Source: Desulfitibacter sp. BRH_c19 (lineage in GTDB: Bacteria > Bacillota > DSM-16504 > Desulfitibacterales > Desulfitibacteraceae). From it: a stretch of DNA of 64,000 nucleotides. Positions 5,826 through 60,583 of the stretch are shown piece by piece. The stretch is from positions 62,001 through 126,000 of the forward strand of contig LOER01000032.1 in NCBI GenBank assembly GCA_001515945.1. The letters are read 5' to 3'. Within the stretch, counting starts at the first letter, position 1. Each line of letters opens with the position of its first letter. The notes beneath the pieces were generated by a model that searched no databases, was not told where the DNA came from, and was given only the letters and a program-made list of their open reading frames with translations. The position numbers and the translations under genes were made by a program.

Positions 5826-5857
5826 TTAAAAAAAATAAAAGTCGGTGATTAACCGAC
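5826..5857 (-). terminator. Terminator of spoIVA
   Basis: Minus strand GTCGGT-TAATC-ACCGAC followed by TTTTATTTTTTTT. The hairpin begins at the last base of the spoIVA stop codon. Confidence 0.85.
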
Positions 5858-7335
5858 TATATAATAATGCAAATGAGCCCCCCGCTACCGTCATTTACTA
5901 TTCTTTCTAATGTTTCCTGAAGTTTCTCTTGTGCATTTTCTGGCATTCTGTATAGTTTTCCTTGAATTCCTTCTCGAGTTAGGTCATAGAGAGATTTACC
6001 AAAGATATTTGTGTCCCAAATTTTTTGTGGATTTTCCTCAAATTCTTCCACTATATATTGAATAAGCTCTTCACACTGTTTTTCTGTGCCAATAAGAGGT
6101 GTGATTTCAGTAGTAATATTAGCCCGTATTAAATGATAAGATGGTGCGGTTGCCTTTAATTTTACTCCAAAACCTCTTCCCTGTTTTATTAACTCTGGTT
6201 CTTCTAGTATCATTTCAGCAAGGGTAGGAGTAACTGTGCCATAACCTGTGTTTCTAACTTCATTTAGGCCGGTTGCAATTTTATCATAATCCTTTTTAAC
6301 TATGGATAACTCCTTCATCAGTTTCATTAATTCCTGTTCACTATGAATTGAATGTCCAGTTTCTTCTTCTAATACTTTAAAGTAGAGTTGTTTATCAGCA
6401 CTTACATCAATGTATGCTGTACCTGTACCAAGGTTCATATCCTTTAGAACAACATTAGAAACATTTTCTTTAATAGAAAGAGTCTCTATGACATTATCAA
6501 TATCTCTTACTTTCTTAACATTTTCAGTTGCTGTGTTTACACTTTCTTGATACGAAACTCTCAACCAGTGCTCTTCGTCCAATTCATCAATCCATAAAGG
6601 TAGATCAATACTAATTTCAACAACAGGGAACTCATAGAGAGCCTCTTCTAAAATGTTCATAATATCTTCTTCTTTTAAGTTTGAAACATCCATTGGTAAT
6701 ACTGGTGATCTATACTGTTCCTCAAGAGAATTTGCAAGATTGTAAGTTTCTTCAGAGTATGGGTTAGCTGAGTTTAAGATGATAATGAAAGGTTTGTTTA
6801 AACTCTGTAATTCCCATATAACTCTTTCTTCTGCTGACTCATAGTTCTCTCTTGGAATATCTGAGATGCTGCCATCAGTAAATACCACAAGTCCCATAGT
6901 TGAGTGGTCCTCGATTACTTTTTTAGTCCCAAACTCAGCTGCTTCTTGAAAAGGAATATCATCTTCAAACCATGGTGTTCTAACCATTCTAGGTCCGTCT
7001 TCATCACCGTATCCCTTTGCTCCTTCTACTGTATAACCAACACAATCTACTACCCTAACATTCATCTTCAGTCCATCTTTGATTTTTACCTCTACCGCAT
7101 CTGCAGGTATAAATTTTGGTTCGGTAGTCATTATAGTTTTACCTGCACCACTTTGTGGAAGTTCATCTCTAGCACGGTCTCTATCATTAGGATTTTCAAT
7201 ATTAGGTATGACCATAAGTTCCATAAACTTTTTGATGAAGGTGGATTTACCTGTGCGAACAGGGCCAACTACACCCAGATAAATATCACCTCCTGTACGT
7301 TCAGCTATGTCACGAAAGATAGTCGTATTATCCAC
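5857..7335 (-). CDS. spoIVA: Stage IV sporulation protein A
   Basis: 492 residues, the family length. SpoIVA is the ATP-hydrolysing basement-layer protein that polymerises on the outer forespore membrane and anchors the spore coat. The N-terminal Walker A GPVRTGKST (residues 24-32), a DCVGYTVEGAKGYG segment, and the conserved C-terminus ending GLICIII are all present. Start is GTG with AAGGAGGG upstream. It lies downstream of gpsA as in Bacillus, but a terminator between them suggests a separate mother-cell promoter in the 170-base gap, as expected for a sigma-E gene; I could not assign the boxes with confidence. Confidence 0.97.
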   Translation of the reverse strand: MDNTTIFRDIAERTGGDIYLGVVGPVRTGKSTFIKKFMELMVIPNIENPNDRDRARDELPQSGAGKTIMTTEPKFIPADAVEVKIKDGLKMNVRVVDCVGYTVEGAKGYGDEDGPRMVRTPWFEDDIPFQEAAEFGTKKVIEDHSTMGLVVFTDGSISDIPRENYESAEERVIWELQSLNKPFIIILNSANPYSEETYNLANSLEEQYRSPVLPMDVSNLKEEDIMNILEEALYEFPVVEISIDLPLWIDELDEEHWLRVSYQESVNTATENVKKVRDIDNVIETLSIKENVSNVVLKDMNLGTGTAYIDVSADKQLYFKVLEEETGHSIHSEQELMKLMKELSIVKKDYDKIATGLNEVRNTGYGTVTPTLAEMILEEPELIKQGRGFGVKLKATAPSYHLIRANITTEITPLIGTEKQCEELIQYIVEEFEENPQKIWDTNIFGKSLYDLTREGIQGKLYRMPENAQEKLQETLERIVNDGSGGLICIII

Positions 7336-28003: not shown

Positions 28004-28093
28004 TAGTAATCACTCCTAGGTAGTCTAATTGTTAGTAAATATGGGTGTTTATATACTTTTTAGTATTACCCATATACCAACAAGAAAACCCCT

Positions 28094-28807
28094 TTATACT
28101 AATGTTTTTAGTTTATTTACTTCATATGTAGTGAGATATCGATATTTTCCTGGAGCTACTCCCTTTAAAGTTAAAAATCCAAAAGATGACCGTTTTAAGC
28201 TTAAGATTGGAAAACCTATTGCATCAAACATTCTTCTCACTTGTCTATTCTTACCTTCTCGGATTGTTATTTCGGCTATGCTTTTACCATCTTTTATTTC
28301 TAAAACATTTACCTTTGCAGGTGCAGTCACCCCATCATCTAAGGTAACACCGTTTTCAAGGTTTGTAACTGCCTCAACTGTCAATTTTCCTTTGACTGAG
28401 GCGCGATATGTTTTAGAGAAACCATGCTTGGGGTGTGTCAACTTATATGTTAATTCACCATCATTTGTAAGTAGTAATAGACCAGTTGTCTGGGAATCCA
28501 ATCTACCTACTGGATATAATCTTCCAATGTTTTTTGGGATTAATTCCAAAACAGTTTTTCTCCCATGATTGTCTTTAACAGTACTAATATAACCTTTCGG
28601 CTTATTTAAAAGTATGTATATGTGTTCTTCTTTGCGCTCCAATAGCCTTCCATCTATGTGTATATTATCTGCACTAGGATTGATTTTCGTACCTAATTCT
28701 TGCATAACTCTACCGTTAACCTTAACTCTTCCCTGCAAAATAAGCTCTTCACTTTTCCTTCTTGATGCCACTCCAGCCTGAGCAAGGAATTTTTGGAGCC
28801 TTTCCAA
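28094..28807 (-). CDS. rluB: Ribosomal large-subunit pseudouridine synthase B
   Basis: 237 residues, RsuA/RluB family. An S4 RNA-binding domain (ERLQKFLAQAGVASRRKSEE) is followed by the catalytic domain with YPVGRLDSQTTGLLLLTNDG, where the aspartate attacks uridine, and a C-terminal REGKNRQVRRMF motif. It modifies 23S rRNA near position 2605 in characterised members. TTG start at 28807. It follows spmB, as rsuA-type genes often do in spore formers. Confidence 0.92.
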   Translation of the reverse strand: MERLQKFLAQAGVASRRKSEELILQGRVKVNGRVMQELGTKINPSADNIHIDGRLLERKEEHIYILLNKPKGYISTVKDNHGRKTVLELIPKNIGRLYPVGRLDSQTTGLLLLTNDGELTYKLTHPKHGFSKTYRASVKGKLTVEAVTNLENGVTLDDGVTAPAKVNVLEIKDGKSIAEITIREGKNRQVRRMFDAIGFPILSLKRSSFGFLTLKGVAPGKYRYLTTYEVNKLKTLV

Positions 28808-52349: not shown

Positions 52350-52982
52350 CTATTGAAAATAGGTTATTATGAATTTCATGGTTAAAGGAGCTCCATAGCC
52401 TTCTACTAGGCCCCCTATTACAGTAATAATACAAAATATAAATAGTAACAAAGTATAATTAATAAACATTTGGGAAATAGAAAATTTGCCTTTTCCCATG
52501 CTACCTTTTAGTAAGCATAATGAAAAAGTAATAGAGGCTACTGCGCAGACAAGAAGGCTTGGTACATAGAAGAGATTTTGTGGTAAGACAGAAAATATTG
52601 ATAATAACATACCAGCAAAACCTTTTTGTAATATAAGAAAACCAACAGTAAAGCCCATTATAAAGCCTTTAAAAGATACTATTAATAGAATAATTGGTAT
52701 ACCAATTATAGTTAATCCTAATGCCCATATTATAAAAATGAACTTTAAGTTATTAAAGATAGCATCCTGTGTAACTACGACAGAATTGATAGTCAAGCCG
52801 GCAAGCCCCTTAAGGAAAAAATCAAAATACTCAACCAGTTCTTGGATCTGATATTCCCCTAAGCTACTAACAGTTAGTGCACCCAGAGAACTGCCTCCAA
52901 GAAACATAACTAGTGTAAGTATATATAAAACTATATGGTCCTTAACATGATTAAACCATACCTTAAGTAAAGCCTTTATCAT
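52350..52982 (-). CDS. spoIIM: Stage II sporulation protein M
   Basis: 210 residues, about five membrane helices; FNHVKDHIVLYILTLVMFLGGSSLGAL near the start and FIMGFTVGFLILQKGFAGML are typical. It anchors the SpoIID-SpoIIP engulfment enzymes in the mother-cell membrane; spoIIP is encoded at 13384. The ATG at 52982 has GGGGGG nine bases upstream; an ATG six codons earlier is less well placed. Confidence 0.94.
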   Translation of the reverse strand: MIKALLKVWFNHVKDHIVLYILTLVMFLGGSSLGALTVSSLGEYQIQELVEYFDFFLKGLAGLTINSVVVTQDAIFNNLKFIFIIWALGLTIIGIPIILLIVSFKGFIMGFTVGFLILQKGFAGMLLSIFSVLPQNLFYVPSLLVCAVASITFSLCLLKGSMGKGKFSISQMFINYTLLLFIFCIITVIGGLVEGYGAPLTMKFIITYFQ

Positions 52983-53039
52983 TTGAGTTTTGCCCCCCAT
53001 ATCACATAACTATTAAAATGATATGCGGAAAGGCTTGTT

Positions 53040-53702
53040 TTATGACAAGCCCTTTGTAAGCTCACATAAATACTTTGCGGCCAATACATCTTCAAGTGAA
53101 TTAGAGCTAGCTGCCACAAACGAAATGTTTTTTTGTGAGTCTATAGCTAGCTTATAAGCCCGTAAAGCACCTTTTAAAGCGGGTTCCTTACCTTTGAGGT
53201 TTCCAGTGCGAGCTATAGTAGCAGTTGTTGTAATACCCCCAGCATTATAGGCTGTATCAAACGCCACGCCACCTGTATTAGTTGCAGCTATAACAATTCT
53301 ATTTGTAAAGTCTGTAAGCCCAGATATTTCTTTTCCGATGTTTGGAACATAATCATAGATTTTTGCACCTAAATCACTTAATTTGTTAATCAGTCTTTGA
53401 CTGTTTTTTTGATGCTCAAATTTACTGGCGAATCTAGGTTCTCCAATTATGATTATCTCAGTATTTAATTGTAGTGCCAATGAAGCAGCAACCGTGGCAA
53501 TTTTTTCAGGATTAACTGGTACTGGTGCACTATTTTTGTCCGGGCTTGAGCCAAATACGGCTGTCGCTCCCATCTCCATGGCAGTTTCCAGGCTTGTTGA
53601 CATATCTATAACATCTACTATCACAACAATATGACCATTAAGGCCTGCTTCATAAGCTCCACTAGCATCAGCACTAAAGTATACCTTAAGTTGTTTCATT
53701 TT
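53040..53702 (-). CDS. ComB-like protein (2-phosphosulfolactate phosphatase family), uncertain
   Basis: About 220 residues. VVIVDVIDMSTSLETAMEMGAT near residue 25, IIIIGEPRFASKFEH, and RIVIAATNTGGVAFDTAYNAGG near 140 resemble the ComB phosphatase fold, which in methanogens and Bacillus makes sulfolactate. The match is from pattern only; key metal residues are not certain. It overlaps the nudF end by 17 bases, and two ATGs (53702, 53696) lack a clear ribosome site, implying coupling. A stem with short T-run overlaps its stop. Confidence 0.5.
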   Translation of the reverse strand, partial: KMKQLKVYFSADASGAYEAGLNGHIVVIVDVIDMSTSLETAMEMGATAVFGSSPDKNSAPVPVNPEKIATVAASLALQLNTEIIIIGEPRFASKFEHQKNSQRLINKLSDLGAKIYDYVPNIGKEISGLTDFTNRIVIAATNTGGVAFDTAYNAGGITTTATIARTGNLKGKEPALKGALRAYKLAIDSQKNISFVAASSNSLEDVLAAKYLCELTKGLS

Positions 53703-54234
53703 CATAAAAAATTCTGGCAGCAAGGATACCAGCCACAGTTTTTCCATCTACTATTTTTTTTGATTCTATAAGCTTTAAAGCCTCACTTACTGAAATCAAA
53801 TCAATACTGGCTATTTCCTCGCTATCCATTGGATTATCTAGAGTTTTAACCACTTCAGTTGCTAGATAGATTATTACTTTTTCGTTACTAAATCCTGGAG
53901 ATGTATAGATAGCAAAAAGCTCTCGCCAATTATTAGCGACATAGCCTGTCTCCTCTAGCAACTCTCTTTTTGCACATCCTAGAGGTGTTTCATTCTTTTC
54001 TAGTTTTCCCGCAGGAATCTCTATTAGATCTTTTTCCATAGGTTTTCGAAACTGGGTTACAAGTAATACCATTTTGTCATGGGTAATGGCTACAATTGCA
54101 ACTGCTCCCGGATGTTCAACTATCTCACGTTTCCCAAGCTTTCCTCCTTCTAGCTGAACCTCATCAACTCTTAAACGTAAAATCTTGCCTTCAAAAAAGC
54201 ATTTAGAATTAATTGTAGTTTCCTTCTTACTCAT
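53686..54234 (-). CDS. nudF: ADP-ribose pyrophosphatase, NUDIX
   Basis: 182 residues. Full Nudix box GKLEKNETPLGCAKRELLEETG (split GKLEKNETPLGCAK, RELLEETG) with VTQFRKPMEKDLIEIPAGK before it, the ADP-ribose subfamily pattern. ATG at 54234 follows AGGTGATTTA; a longer frame to 54318 has no ribosome site and a membrane-like odd start, so I reject it. The plus-strand gene at 54339 diverges from it. Confidence 0.93.
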   Translation of the reverse strand: MSKKETTINSKCFFEGKILRLRVDEVQLEGGKLGKREIVEHPGAVAIVAITHDKMVLLVTQFRKPMEKDLIEIPAGKLEKNETPLGCAKRELLEETGYVANNWRELFAIYTSPGFSNEKVIIYLATEVVKTLDNPMDSEEIASIDLISVSEALKLIESKKIVDGKTVAGILAARIFYENETT

Positions 54235-54338
54235 TAAATCACCTACTTTATTCATATTGTAAATATATACATAATTAGAAAAAAGATACATAAAATAGTA
54301 TCCAATATAACTCGACAATTACCTTAGGAGGAAAGTAT

Positions 54339-54467
54339 ATGTATATTATTGTAAATAAAAAGAGCATCTATTTCTATGGGAAGGTAAAAGAACTCCGAAA
54401 ATATTTAAATGAATTGAGCTCAGAATATACTACTGTAGCCCAATTCATTAATAGCAAACTCAATTGA
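54339..54467 (+). CDS. mciZ: Putative MciZ-like FtsZ inhibitor peptide
   Basis: 42 residues, the only plus-strand gene in the window. The ribosome site AGGAGG lies seven bases before the ATG. Residues 8-41 align with Bacillus MciZ, which caps and shortens FtsZ filaments in the mother cell: shared or similar positions include K8, G14, K15, E18, L19, R20, L23, E25, V33 and I37, and both proteins have a beta strand, then a helix, a short loop and a closing helix. As I recall, Bacillus mciZ is also beside nudF; here it diverges from nudF and ends 11 bases before the DUF3866 stop. Bacillus mciZ is a sigma-E gene; I see no convincing sigma-E boxes in the 105-base gap. Confidence 0.68.
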   Translation: MYIIVNKKSIYFYGKVKELRKYLNELSSEYTTVAQFINSKLN

Positions 54468-54478
54468 TATTATCATAT

Positions 54479-55546
54479 TTATTCCTGTGTAGCTAAAATT
54501 CCTGCAGCACCAGCAGCTAAAAAGTAGTAACGTTCCTCTTCAACTGACCTGCCCATGGTCGAAAAGGGGATATTCAAATGTTCTGCATAGTCCAATACCT
54601 TTTCTGCATCAATGGTGATAAAGGTGTGCAAATCATCTAATCTTCTTTCACGAATCTGATTCTTTAAGTAATCGTTTTCCTCTTTAGGTAAAACGGGAAG
54701 AGATACCTCAGCTGGCTGTAATGCTACTTTTTCAAGGATAGTTAAAGTATGATGGCTGAGACCTTTGTGTCTATCCCTCTTATCCTTAAAAGTGATTCTA
54801 GGAATAGCAATTGCTCTGCCTTTAAGAACGTTTACTGCATTAATTATGTCACCCTGTTCAATTCCTGTAAAACCCCACTTAGTTCCAGTACCTACAACAC
54901 CCGGTCCCATACAAATAATTACTGCGTCAGCCTCTAATACTTCCTTTGCTGCAATTAAACCTGAGTAGATATTTACAGCTTCATAGTCTCCCCCATATGC
55001 ATGCCCCACGGTAATGGTCCCATCAATTAACCCTTGTTCTTTTAATACAGGTACCGTTTTACTAAATGCAAGTGGTAAGGCACCACCGTCTGTCATTATG
55101 TAAACAAGTTTTCCATTTGGGTTCATTAATTTGTAGCCCAAAGCAGCAGGAGCTAATTTGCTATGTAAACTACCTATCATAACTGGGATGTTATTCAAGT
55201 CTTTAAAATCTGATATTTCCCCATGATGAGGATTACCTTGTTCTTCAACTGCTAGAACCTTTATTTGAAAGGGAGTATATCTCAGCTTCATGATATGCCC
55301 TGGTTCTTTAGCTTTACTTTCTATACTAGACAGGTTTAGCATTACAATATGGTACCCACCTGTACCAAGACCATGTTCAACAGCTGTAGTATTTAAGACA
55401 ACTTCATCTCCAGGCTTAACAGTTCCTGTTGCAGTTGGATAATTAATTGCAGAAAATAATTGCTCATCTATAGTAACCTTTATCCATTGTATATCAGCAT
55501 TTTCTTTCTCAATTTCTAATACCTGTCCGATTTTCTTGGATATCAT
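54479..55546 (-). CDS. DUF3866 protein
   Basis: 355 residues, soluble. KPGDEVVLNTTAVEHGLGTGGYHIV near residue 50, LHSKLAPAALGYKLMNP, YIMTDGGALPLAFSK, MGPGVVGTGTKWGFTGIEQG near 225 and FKDKRDRHKGLSHHT identify DUF3866, an uncharacterised actinobacterial and clostridial family. It follows the MraY-like gene in the operon and ends tail to tail with the mciZ-like gene. ATG behind GGGAGGG. Confidence 0.82.
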   Translation of the reverse strand: MISKKIGQVLEIEKENADIQWIKVTIDEQLFSAINYPTATGTVKPGDEVVLNTTAVEHGLGTGGYHIVMLNLSSIESKAKEPGHIMKLRYTPFQIKVLAVEEQGNPHHGEISDFKDLNNIPVMIGSLHSKLAPAALGYKLMNPNGKLVYIMTDGGALPLAFSKTVPVLKEQGLIDGTITVGHAYGGDYEAVNIYSGLIAAKEVLEADAVIICMGPGVVGTGTKWGFTGIEQGDIINAVNVLKGRAIAIPRITFKDKRDRHKGLSHHTLTILEKVALQPAEVSLPVLPKEENDYLKNQIRERRLDDLHTFITIDAEKVLDYAEHLNIPFSTMGRSVEEERYYFLAAGAAGILATQE

Positions 55547-58372: not shown

Positions 58373-60583
58373 TTAAGTTAATCTTTTTCCATATCTTCTG
58401 AGCAATAAACCTCCACCTGCTAATACCATTCCACCAAACAATAGCATTCCACTTGCACCAGTCTTAGGTAGCTCAGGTTCTTCAACTTCGTCAACAACTA
58501 CAGGATCAGGAATCTTTGGATCGTCAGGTCTAACATTTGGAGGAGGTGGGTCCACCTTATCTCCTTGTTTTACTATATAATGGGCAGGATCGGTATCCGT
58601 ATACGTTCTCCCACTATAATCTCCAGTAGCAGTAGCAGTATTCTTGTGCTGGCCATTTGCTGCACCCACAGGACCAAAGATGTATTCGAAGCTACTACCT
58701 TTACTCAATGAATCCTCTATTTCATCTTCATCAAGGTCATCAAAATAGTCATCTGTAAGTGTAATGTTGGTTAATCTAACATCACCAGTATTAGTAACAA
58801 CAAACTTAAAGAACACATCACTATTTTCTGTTGTTTCAGGTCCGCTAGCTGAATTTGCATCATCCCAAGTATCCTTACCATCTACAGAAACGTACTTCTT
58901 AACATCAATTCTTGGTTTTTTTGAACCATTTGGTGGTGGATCAGATTCCTTTTTGTTTTTAACAAGTACTTCGTCGGTTTTTTCATAAACAGAAAGAACT
59001 ACACTACTTGTAGAAATACTATCAAATTTATAGGGTGAAGGAACATTTAATTCTTTAAAGGTGTATGTTCCAAAATCTAGATCCTTCAAGGTTACTGGAA
59101 CATTCTCACTAACCTGTATAACCCTTTTCACTACACCATCGCCCATTGTTGGATAGGTGACCTCTACATCAAATTTTTTCGCCTTATCTGTGGTGTTACC
59201 ATTAATTACATGTTTTTTAATAACTAACATAGCCTTTTCAGGATCACTTTCCTTGTAGTTAGTGATAGTTACTTCTTTATGCATACTCTCATCTGTAGTT
59301 CCGTCAGGGATGGTTACATTAAATGTTGCCTTATTAGTTTTGTAACCAGTTGGCAGATTGATCTCTTCAACAAGATAGGCTCCTGGATCTAAATTAGAAA
59401 ATACTGCTGATGAATTGACACTAACTAATTTAATTTGAGAGTACATGTTATCAGGACCACCAGTAACTTTTACACTAAAATCTATACTAGCCTCTTGATC
59501 TGTACCTCCACTTATGACTTTGTTTACAGTAATACTGCCTTTTTCAGGATCACTTTCCTTGTAGTTAGTGATAGTTACTTCTTTATGCATACTCTCATCT
59601 GTAGTTCCGTCAGGGATGGTTACATTAAATGTTGCCTTATTAGTTTTGTAACCAGTTGGCAGATTGATCTCTTCAACAAGATAGGCTCCTGGATCTAAAT
59701 TAGAAAATACTGCTGATGAATTGACACTAACTAATTTAATTTGAGAGTACATGTTATCAGGACCACCAGTAACTTTTACACTAAAATCTATACTAGCCTC
59801 TTGATCTGTACCTCCACTTATGACTTTGTTTACAGTAATACTGCCTTTTTCAGGATCATTTTCCATGTAGTTAGTGATAGTTACTTCTTTATGCATACTT
59901 TCATCTGTAGTTCCGTCAGGGATGGTTACATTAAATGTTGCCTTGTTAGTTTTGTAACCAGTTGGCAGATTGATTTCTTCAACTACATAATTTCCTGGTT
60001 CCAAATTAGAAAATAGTGCTGGTGAATTTAAACCGAAATTTTTAGTTTGAGAATAGTAGTTGTCAGGTCCACCAGTAACTTTCACTATGAAAACAGCACT
60101 TTCATCATCAGTTGTGCCATCAGTTATTAGTTTATTTACTGTAATACTACCCTTATCATGTTCTTGCTTGGTGCACCAATAAAAAACTAAATGGCTAATC
60201 TCTTGATTTGTTCCTAAACCTAAATTTGTATCGCTCTTAATTGCTGGATCATAACTGTAAAGGGTTCCTCCTTCTTTTCCACCTTTTACAAATACATGGC
60301 TAATATTAATATCTGATACCCAATCAACTAAAGTACCCGAGGAATGAAAGTATACAGAAACATAAACCGATGGGTTTTCATCTAAAAGGTATCTTCCATC
60401 TTTTGGTGGATCAATTTTCATTTCATTACAGTCATTTAATGCAGGAACATGATTATTAGGAAAGTTATCTGGTATTGGAGTCTCAGTCCTACCTTCAGCA
60501 AGAACCATACTGTAAGTGAGTAATAAAGTTATTATTAATACTACAGCTAATATGGTTACTTTTGCAATTCTGTTATTCTTCAT
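58373..60583 (-). CDS. LPxTG cell-wall protein with DUF5979/Cna-B-like repeats
   Basis: 736 residues. Signal peptide (residues 1-30, VTILAVVLIITLLLTYSMVLA), then three SITVNK-type repeat domains of 102 residues (about residues 145-450), a fourth related domain, a DUF11-like domain with TGDVRLTNITLTDD, a proline-rich stretch and the sorting signal LPKTG, a hydrophobic helix and RRYGKR. Sortase would link it to the wall. No sortase is in the window. Start ATG behind GGGAGG. It stands alone, with its own promoter and terminator. Confidence 0.9.
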   Translation of the reverse strand: MKNNRIAKVTILAVVLIITLLLTYSMVLAEGRTETPIPDNFPNNHVPALNDCNEMKIDPPKDGRYLLDENPSVYVSVYFHSSGTLVDWVSDINISHVFVKGGKEGGTLYSYDPAIKSDTNLGLGTNQEISHLVFYWCTKQEHDKGSITVNKLITDGTTDDESAVFIVKVTGGPDNYYSQTKNFGLNSPALFSNLEPGNYVVEEINLPTGYKTNKATFNVTIPDGTTDESMHKEVTITNYMENDPEKGSITVNKVISGGTDQEASIDFSVKVTGGPDNMYSQIKLVSVNSSAVFSNLDPGAYLVEEINLPTGYKTNKATFNVTIPDGTTDESMHKEVTITNYKESDPEKGSITVNKVISGGTDQEASIDFSVKVTGGPDNMYSQIKLVSVNSSAVFSNLDPGAYLVEEINLPTGYKTNKATFNVTIPDGTTDESMHKEVTITNYKESDPEKAMLVIKKHVINGNTTDKAKKFDVEVTYPTMGDGVVKRVIQVSENVPVTLKDLDFGTYTFKELNVPSPYKFDSISTSSVVLSVYEKTDEVLVKNKKESDPPPNGSKKPRIDVKKYVSVDGKDTWDDANSASGPETTENSDVFFKFVVTNTGDVRLTNITLTDDYFDDLDEDEIEDSLSKGSSFEYIFGPVGAANGQHKNTATATGDYSGRTYTDTDPAHYIVKQGDKVDPPPPNVRPDDPKIPDPVVVDEVEEPELPKTGASGMLLFGGMVLAGGGLLLRRYGKRLT
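59235..59846 (-). repeat. Two identical 306-base tandem copies
   Basis: 59235-59540 and 59541-59846 are base-for-base identical as far as I compared them; a third, diverged copy follows upstream to about 60150. Each encodes one 102-residue surface domain, so changes in copy number keep the frame. Confidence 0.92.

Follow-up and report, generated by a model that had tools for sequence, protein, structure and literature searches.

SulA of the Gammaproteobacteria and MinC are unrelated in sequence and fold to MciZ, the FtsZ-capping peptide of Bacillus subtilis that keeps the mother cell from dividing during spore formation, and respond to other signals (SOS response, cell position). Like MciZ, both are negative regulators and target the same C-terminal face of FtsZ (PMC11938149). 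MciZ is under the control of sigma-E (PMC5045927) and caps FtsZ (PMC5045927, PMC6126333, PMC4929429, PMC7430163); in the FtsZ:MciZ crystal, its hairpin extends the C-terminal sheet of FtsZ by two strands (PMC4929429), and the N-terminus of the free peptide is unstructured (PMC7430163). SpoIIM, SpoIID and SpoIIP are likewise sigma-E-dependent and oppose the formation of a second mother-cell septum in B. subtilis (PMC6126333), but they act downstream on the peptidoglycan, not on FtsZ, and have no sequence relation to MciZ. In the mostly freely accessible literature searched, MciZ is discussed for Bacillus only: no report of MciZ in clostridial lineages and no paper joining mciZ with nudF or yqkF was found, and mciZ is unmentioned in the main text of Galperin et al. 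2012 on sporulation gene sets.

The window, i.e. the whole stretch of 64,000 nucleotides of Desulfitibacter sp. BRH_c19 that was analysed, contains an open reading frame of 42 codons on the plus strand (54339-54467, ATG to TGA; MYIIVNKKSIYFYGKVKELRKYLNELSSEYTTVAQFINSKLN), preceded 7 nt 5' of the ATG by the directly readable Shine-Dalgarno sequence AGGAGG (54326-54331, plus strand), just as the original prediction had described it. With a probability of roughly 0.87, we regard this frame as an MciZ ortholog, that is, a sigma-E-controlled FtsZ-capping peptide of the mother cell that works as in Bacillus. The gene is divergent from a nudF-like NUDIX hydrolase gene (53686-54234, minus strand; PF00293, E=1.4e-18), whose probable ATG lies at 54234 (start codon and ribosome site judged by eye), which bears out the predicted adjacency to nudF; on its other side it converges with a DUF3866 gene (54479-55546, minus strand; PF12982, E=4e-135), the two stop codons being 11 bp apart. 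On the minus strand, nudF is followed by a weak 2-phosphosulfolactate-phosphatase-like ORF, spoIIM (52350-53000; TIGR02831 over cut-off), a 170-aa ORF, xerD, deoB, punA, a pyrimidine-nucleoside phosphorylase gene, dacF, spoIIAA, spoIIAB and sigF. The predicted order nudF-spoIIM-xerD-deoB-punA-dacF-spoIIAA-spoIIAB-sigF was thus found, with the phosphatase-like ORF, the 170-aa ORF and the phosphorylase gene interspersed. The further claim that the peptide gene is the only one against the strand of the window was examined in part and held for the long plus-strand ORFs, all of which overlap minus-strand genes (the largest, 28029-28568, is the antisense shadow of a pseudouridine synthase gene). The window also carries spoIVA (5857-7335) and, at 58373-60583 (minus strand), a gene for a surface protein of 736 aa, which contains nearly identical internal repeats and terminates in an LPKTG-type anchor.

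The Pfam profile of MciZ, PF13072, matched the whole frame significantly, as had been anticipated (23.4 bits, E=5.1e-5; curated cut-off 22.2 bits), and in a genome-wide search (22.6 bits) the frame was the single match above cut-off in its own 3.85-Mb genome; a single match in the genome is a feature shared with MciZ of B. subtilis. In an ungapped alignment with the B. subtilis sequence (40 versus 42 residues; sequence as printed in PMC5045927), 10 of 40 residues (25%) were identical, namely M1, K8, G14, K15, E18, R20, L23, E25, V33 and I37. The residue match proposed by eye withstood shuffling: over residues 8-37, a fraction of 5e-5 of the shuffled sequences scored equally well in any register. 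Single-sequence phmmer searches against the PDB retrieved no MciZ; profiles were needed. NCBIfam yielded no match to the frame and contains no model for MciZ. A match in the Bacillus phage Novomoskovsk (E=6) runs antisense to a gene annotated there and is put down to chance.

Short ORFs are common in AT-rich DNA (63 of at least 30 aa per 10 kb here), and the frame might in principle have arisen by chance or belong to a non-coding element, such as a leader or antiterminator, between nudF and DUF3866. We give this reading hardly any credence: The frame is kept in two congeners with dN/dS values of 0.11, 0.15 and 0.19, which agrees with the conservation that had been predicted for related genomes and is counted as refuting a chance origin; a family of about 50 loci, a ribosome site and a promoter motif speak against it likewise, and no Rfam match was obtained in 53900-54900.

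The first relatives came from a PF13072 search of 61 genomes, and their neighbours were DUF3866, nudF and spoIIM. All nine first family members match PF13072; a 9-row profile built from them found both B. subtilis MciZ structures among the PDB chains (2mrw_A, E=4.7e-5; 4u39_J, E=1.5e-4; ungapped over 30 residues), with some designed helical repeats scoring similarly, solely via summed sub-threshold pieces. Because these nine members had been recruited with PF13072, a second, 15-row profile was composed of sequences from loci fetched solely through the neighbouring DUF3866 gene; its best PDB match was again 2mrw_A (E=0.014).

The AlphaFold2 model of the peptide (40-row alignment; pLDDT 92.8) comprises strands at residues 2-5 and 10-13 and helices at 16-29 and 33-41, corresponding to the hairpin-helix fold of MciZ. 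A Foldseek search against 350,542 PDB chains returned one match at E of at most 10, MciZ from the FtsZ:MciZ crystal (4u39_J; TM 0.67/0.75, rmsd 1.7 over 36 columns); the Foldseek E of 1.2 is weak in itself, as with any 42-residue chain. In the model made from DUF3866-fetched sequences only, 4u39_J also ranked first (rmsd 1.3 over 25 columns), weakly and with low probability. As the N-terminus of free MciZ is unstructured, the predicted hairpin would represent the bound form. A sigma-E-dependent hairpin-helix sporulation peptide with another partner than FtsZ, its likeness to MciZ being convergent or distant and its target changed, would fit the low identity to the B. subtilis peptide (10/40 residues) and the E of 0.014 at which the DUF3866-fetched profile reaches MciZ. 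Such a change of partner appears quite improbable, given that the match to MciZ is ungapped, that the sole fold match in the PDB is MciZ complexed with FtsZ and that size and promoter type equal those of MciZ.

The occurrence of the gene points in the same direction as its sequence, i.e. to an MciZ ortholog. In order to avoid circularity, 80 named loci were fetched with the DUF3866 protein alone; 22 of them contained a match to the peptide profile. All these matches lie on the strand opposite to DUF3866 and immediately follow or overlap its stop, even though 3-9 kb of both strands were searched with the profile. Where the gap between DUF3866 and the next gene was below about 95 bp, there was no peptide gene, and where it exceeded about 105 bp there was nearly always one; exceptions were L069, L080, L083 and L098, and the gap of L024 is poorly measured, its nudF match overlapping the DUF3866 end. 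Among 51 non-redundant loci, mciZ runs against DUF3866 in 44 and against nudF in 31; the nudF neighbourhood is present in the clostridial loci, and a single locus, at a contig end, lies outside the block. B. subtilis mciZ presumably adjoins nudF too; the position of the clostridial gene between nudF and DUF3866 is, besides the 25% identity, what distinguishes it from the B. subtilis counterpart. DUF3866 itself, a conserved 355-aa protein with function unassigned, almost always accompanies nudF in clostridial genomes, whether or not mciZ is present.

In a sample of 150 genomes from the phylum of the window, 51 contained one match each at E of at most 0.01, a few of which (E near 0.001-0.01) may be chance. 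Altogether, about 50 loci form a clostridial family whose location is nearly always the interval from DUF3866 to nudF or the vicinity of spoIIM, and with them the predicted occurrence of MciZ beyond the Bacillus line is established. Among the named carriers are Geosporobacter ferrireducens, G. subterraneus, Thermincola, Syntrophomonas and Gelria MAGs, an Alkaliphilus MAG and Peptococcaceae. No mciZ was present between DUF3866 and nudF in, among others, Clostridioides difficile, Terrisporobacter, Romboutsia and Tissierella, and whole-genome searches of these gave nothing convincing. The present Pfam cut-off mostly misses the family: in the 61 genomes mentioned above, it is passed in three, versus 18 found by the new profile. 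That it catches 3 of 18 carriers and that NCBIfam gives no match would explain why the family has been overlooked. The MciZ family itself is known; its clostridial occurrence appears in none of the papers searched, and new here is the sigma-E-type promoter of most family members described below.

Some additional frames were recorded in the course of these searches. The genome of locus L044, whose record name 'Lutibacter sp. B2' is ill-fitting for a block of clostridial spore-former type, contains a second MciZ-like frame (G161:C40:4512-4619; E 2e-7), two copies being rare. Natronincola peptidivorans (L078) yielded a partial match to model positions 8-25 in a 34-aa frame (G169:C20:104565-104618; E 5e-4), and similar, weaker partial matches occur in Alkaliphilus genomes; such matches may stem from relatives that were shortened or have decayed, or may be due to chance.

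Upstream of the Desulfitibacter gene, a putative sigma-E-type promoter consists of the -35 element ACATAAT (54269-54275, plus strand; assigned from the family motif) and, 13 bp downstream, the -10 element CATAAAAT (54289-54296, plus strand; assigned from the congeners and the family motif), which ends 42 bp 5' of the ATG. Taken alone, the copy ACATAAT-13-CATAAAAT of the window is not significant (p=0.13); those of the two congeners are (p=0.005 and 0.015), and the site occupies the same position in both, on conserved islands of the alignment. For the family, 29 of the 41 upstream regions reached p<0.05 in a two-box sigma-E scan of 130 bp, assessed against dinucleotide shuffles (the combined p-values ignore relatedness). 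An unbiased dyad search in 38 upstream regions had ATA-N16-CATA as its top motif (18 observed versus 0.9 expected), which, judged by its sequence, is the sigma-E arrangement: The sigma-E boxes of C. difficile have ATA at -35 and a -10 in common with sigma-K, the latter having AC at -35 (PMC3789822). Sites with a score of at least 10 were found in 76% of the mciZ regions (median 31 bp before the start), compared with 46% for spoIIM, 15% for DUF3866, 10% for the reverse strand, 2% for nudF and 0% for xerD. The upstream regions of spoIVA, taken as positive control, showed no signal within 130 bp and reached 35% with scores of at least 10 at 350 bp; spoIIM, which sits in the same block as clostridial mciZ, is the better positive control. 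A sigma-E-type promoter is a further trait in common with MciZ of B. subtilis.

The gene is also linked with sporulation at the level of genomes. Within the 150-genome sample, 128 genomes contain spoIVA; MciZ was detected in 50 of these versus 1 of the 22 others (Fisher p=7e-4, uncorrected for relatedness), i.e. 50 of the 51 MciZ genomes have spoIVA. The exception, G079 (97% complete, 280 contigs), has mciZ without a spoIVA match, and spoIIM and nudF adjoin the gene. Together with the fact that many spore-formers manage without MciZ, this genome might point to a genuine MciZ homologue with FtsZ as its target but a role outside sporulation, e.g. slowing division in response to growth rate or stress. 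We consider such a role unlikely in view of the sigma-E-type promoter carried by most family members, the strong bias toward spoIVA genomes and the presence of spoIIM, sigF and spoIIA in the block. The sporulation reading of the peptide, as an MciZ acting in the mother cell, does not imply that it is indispensable: MciZ went undetected in 61% of the sampled genomes with spoIVA, and hence it is not a general requirement of sporulation.

Concerning the origin of the gene, its fixed locus speaks for vertical inheritance among the clostridial lineages. That control of FtsZ by MciZ is likely to be older than the Bacillus line, as originally proposed, we can only infer, because a peptide of 42 residues yields no usable tree. 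We lean toward the view that mciZ, its sigma-E promoter and its adjacency to nudF are ancestral to the Bacilli and the clostridial lineages and were lost many times; the closed DUF3866-nudF gaps in the Clostridioides, Terrisporobacter and Tissierella groups would then be examples of such losses, and spore-formers without MciZ would stop mother-cell division by another route. A widespread clostridial branch whose promoter and position are conserved would make mother-cell control of FtsZ an old part of endospore development, would offer structural studies a diverse set of natural FtsZ-capping peptides and would render it testable how spore-formers without MciZ, such as C. difficile, block division of the mother cell.

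The genome of the Desulfitibacter strain provides the partners that an MciZ would require: it carries the sigma-E gene (421 bits) in addition to spoIVA, sigF and spoIIM, and its canonical FtsZ (L205:976-2022, minus strand) gives a gap-free alignment of 304 residues with 4u39_A, the FtsZ chain of the crystal. By analogy with B. subtilis, from which expression in the mother cell, FtsZ binding, capping and the effect on division are all transferred, mciZ would be transcribed from the promoter at 54269-54296 by the sigma-E RNA polymerase of the mother cell after formation of the polar septum. The 42-residue peptide would fold on FtsZ into a beta-hairpin and helices, and its two strands would extend the sheet of the FtsZ C-terminal domain, thus covering the C-terminal polymerisation face; the capping of FtsZ filaments would in turn prevent any further Z ring in the mother cell. 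Apart from the canonical FtsZ, the genome encodes a second protein of the tubulin/FtsZ family with 445 aa (L206:754-2088, minus strand; G000:C16:207862-208365).
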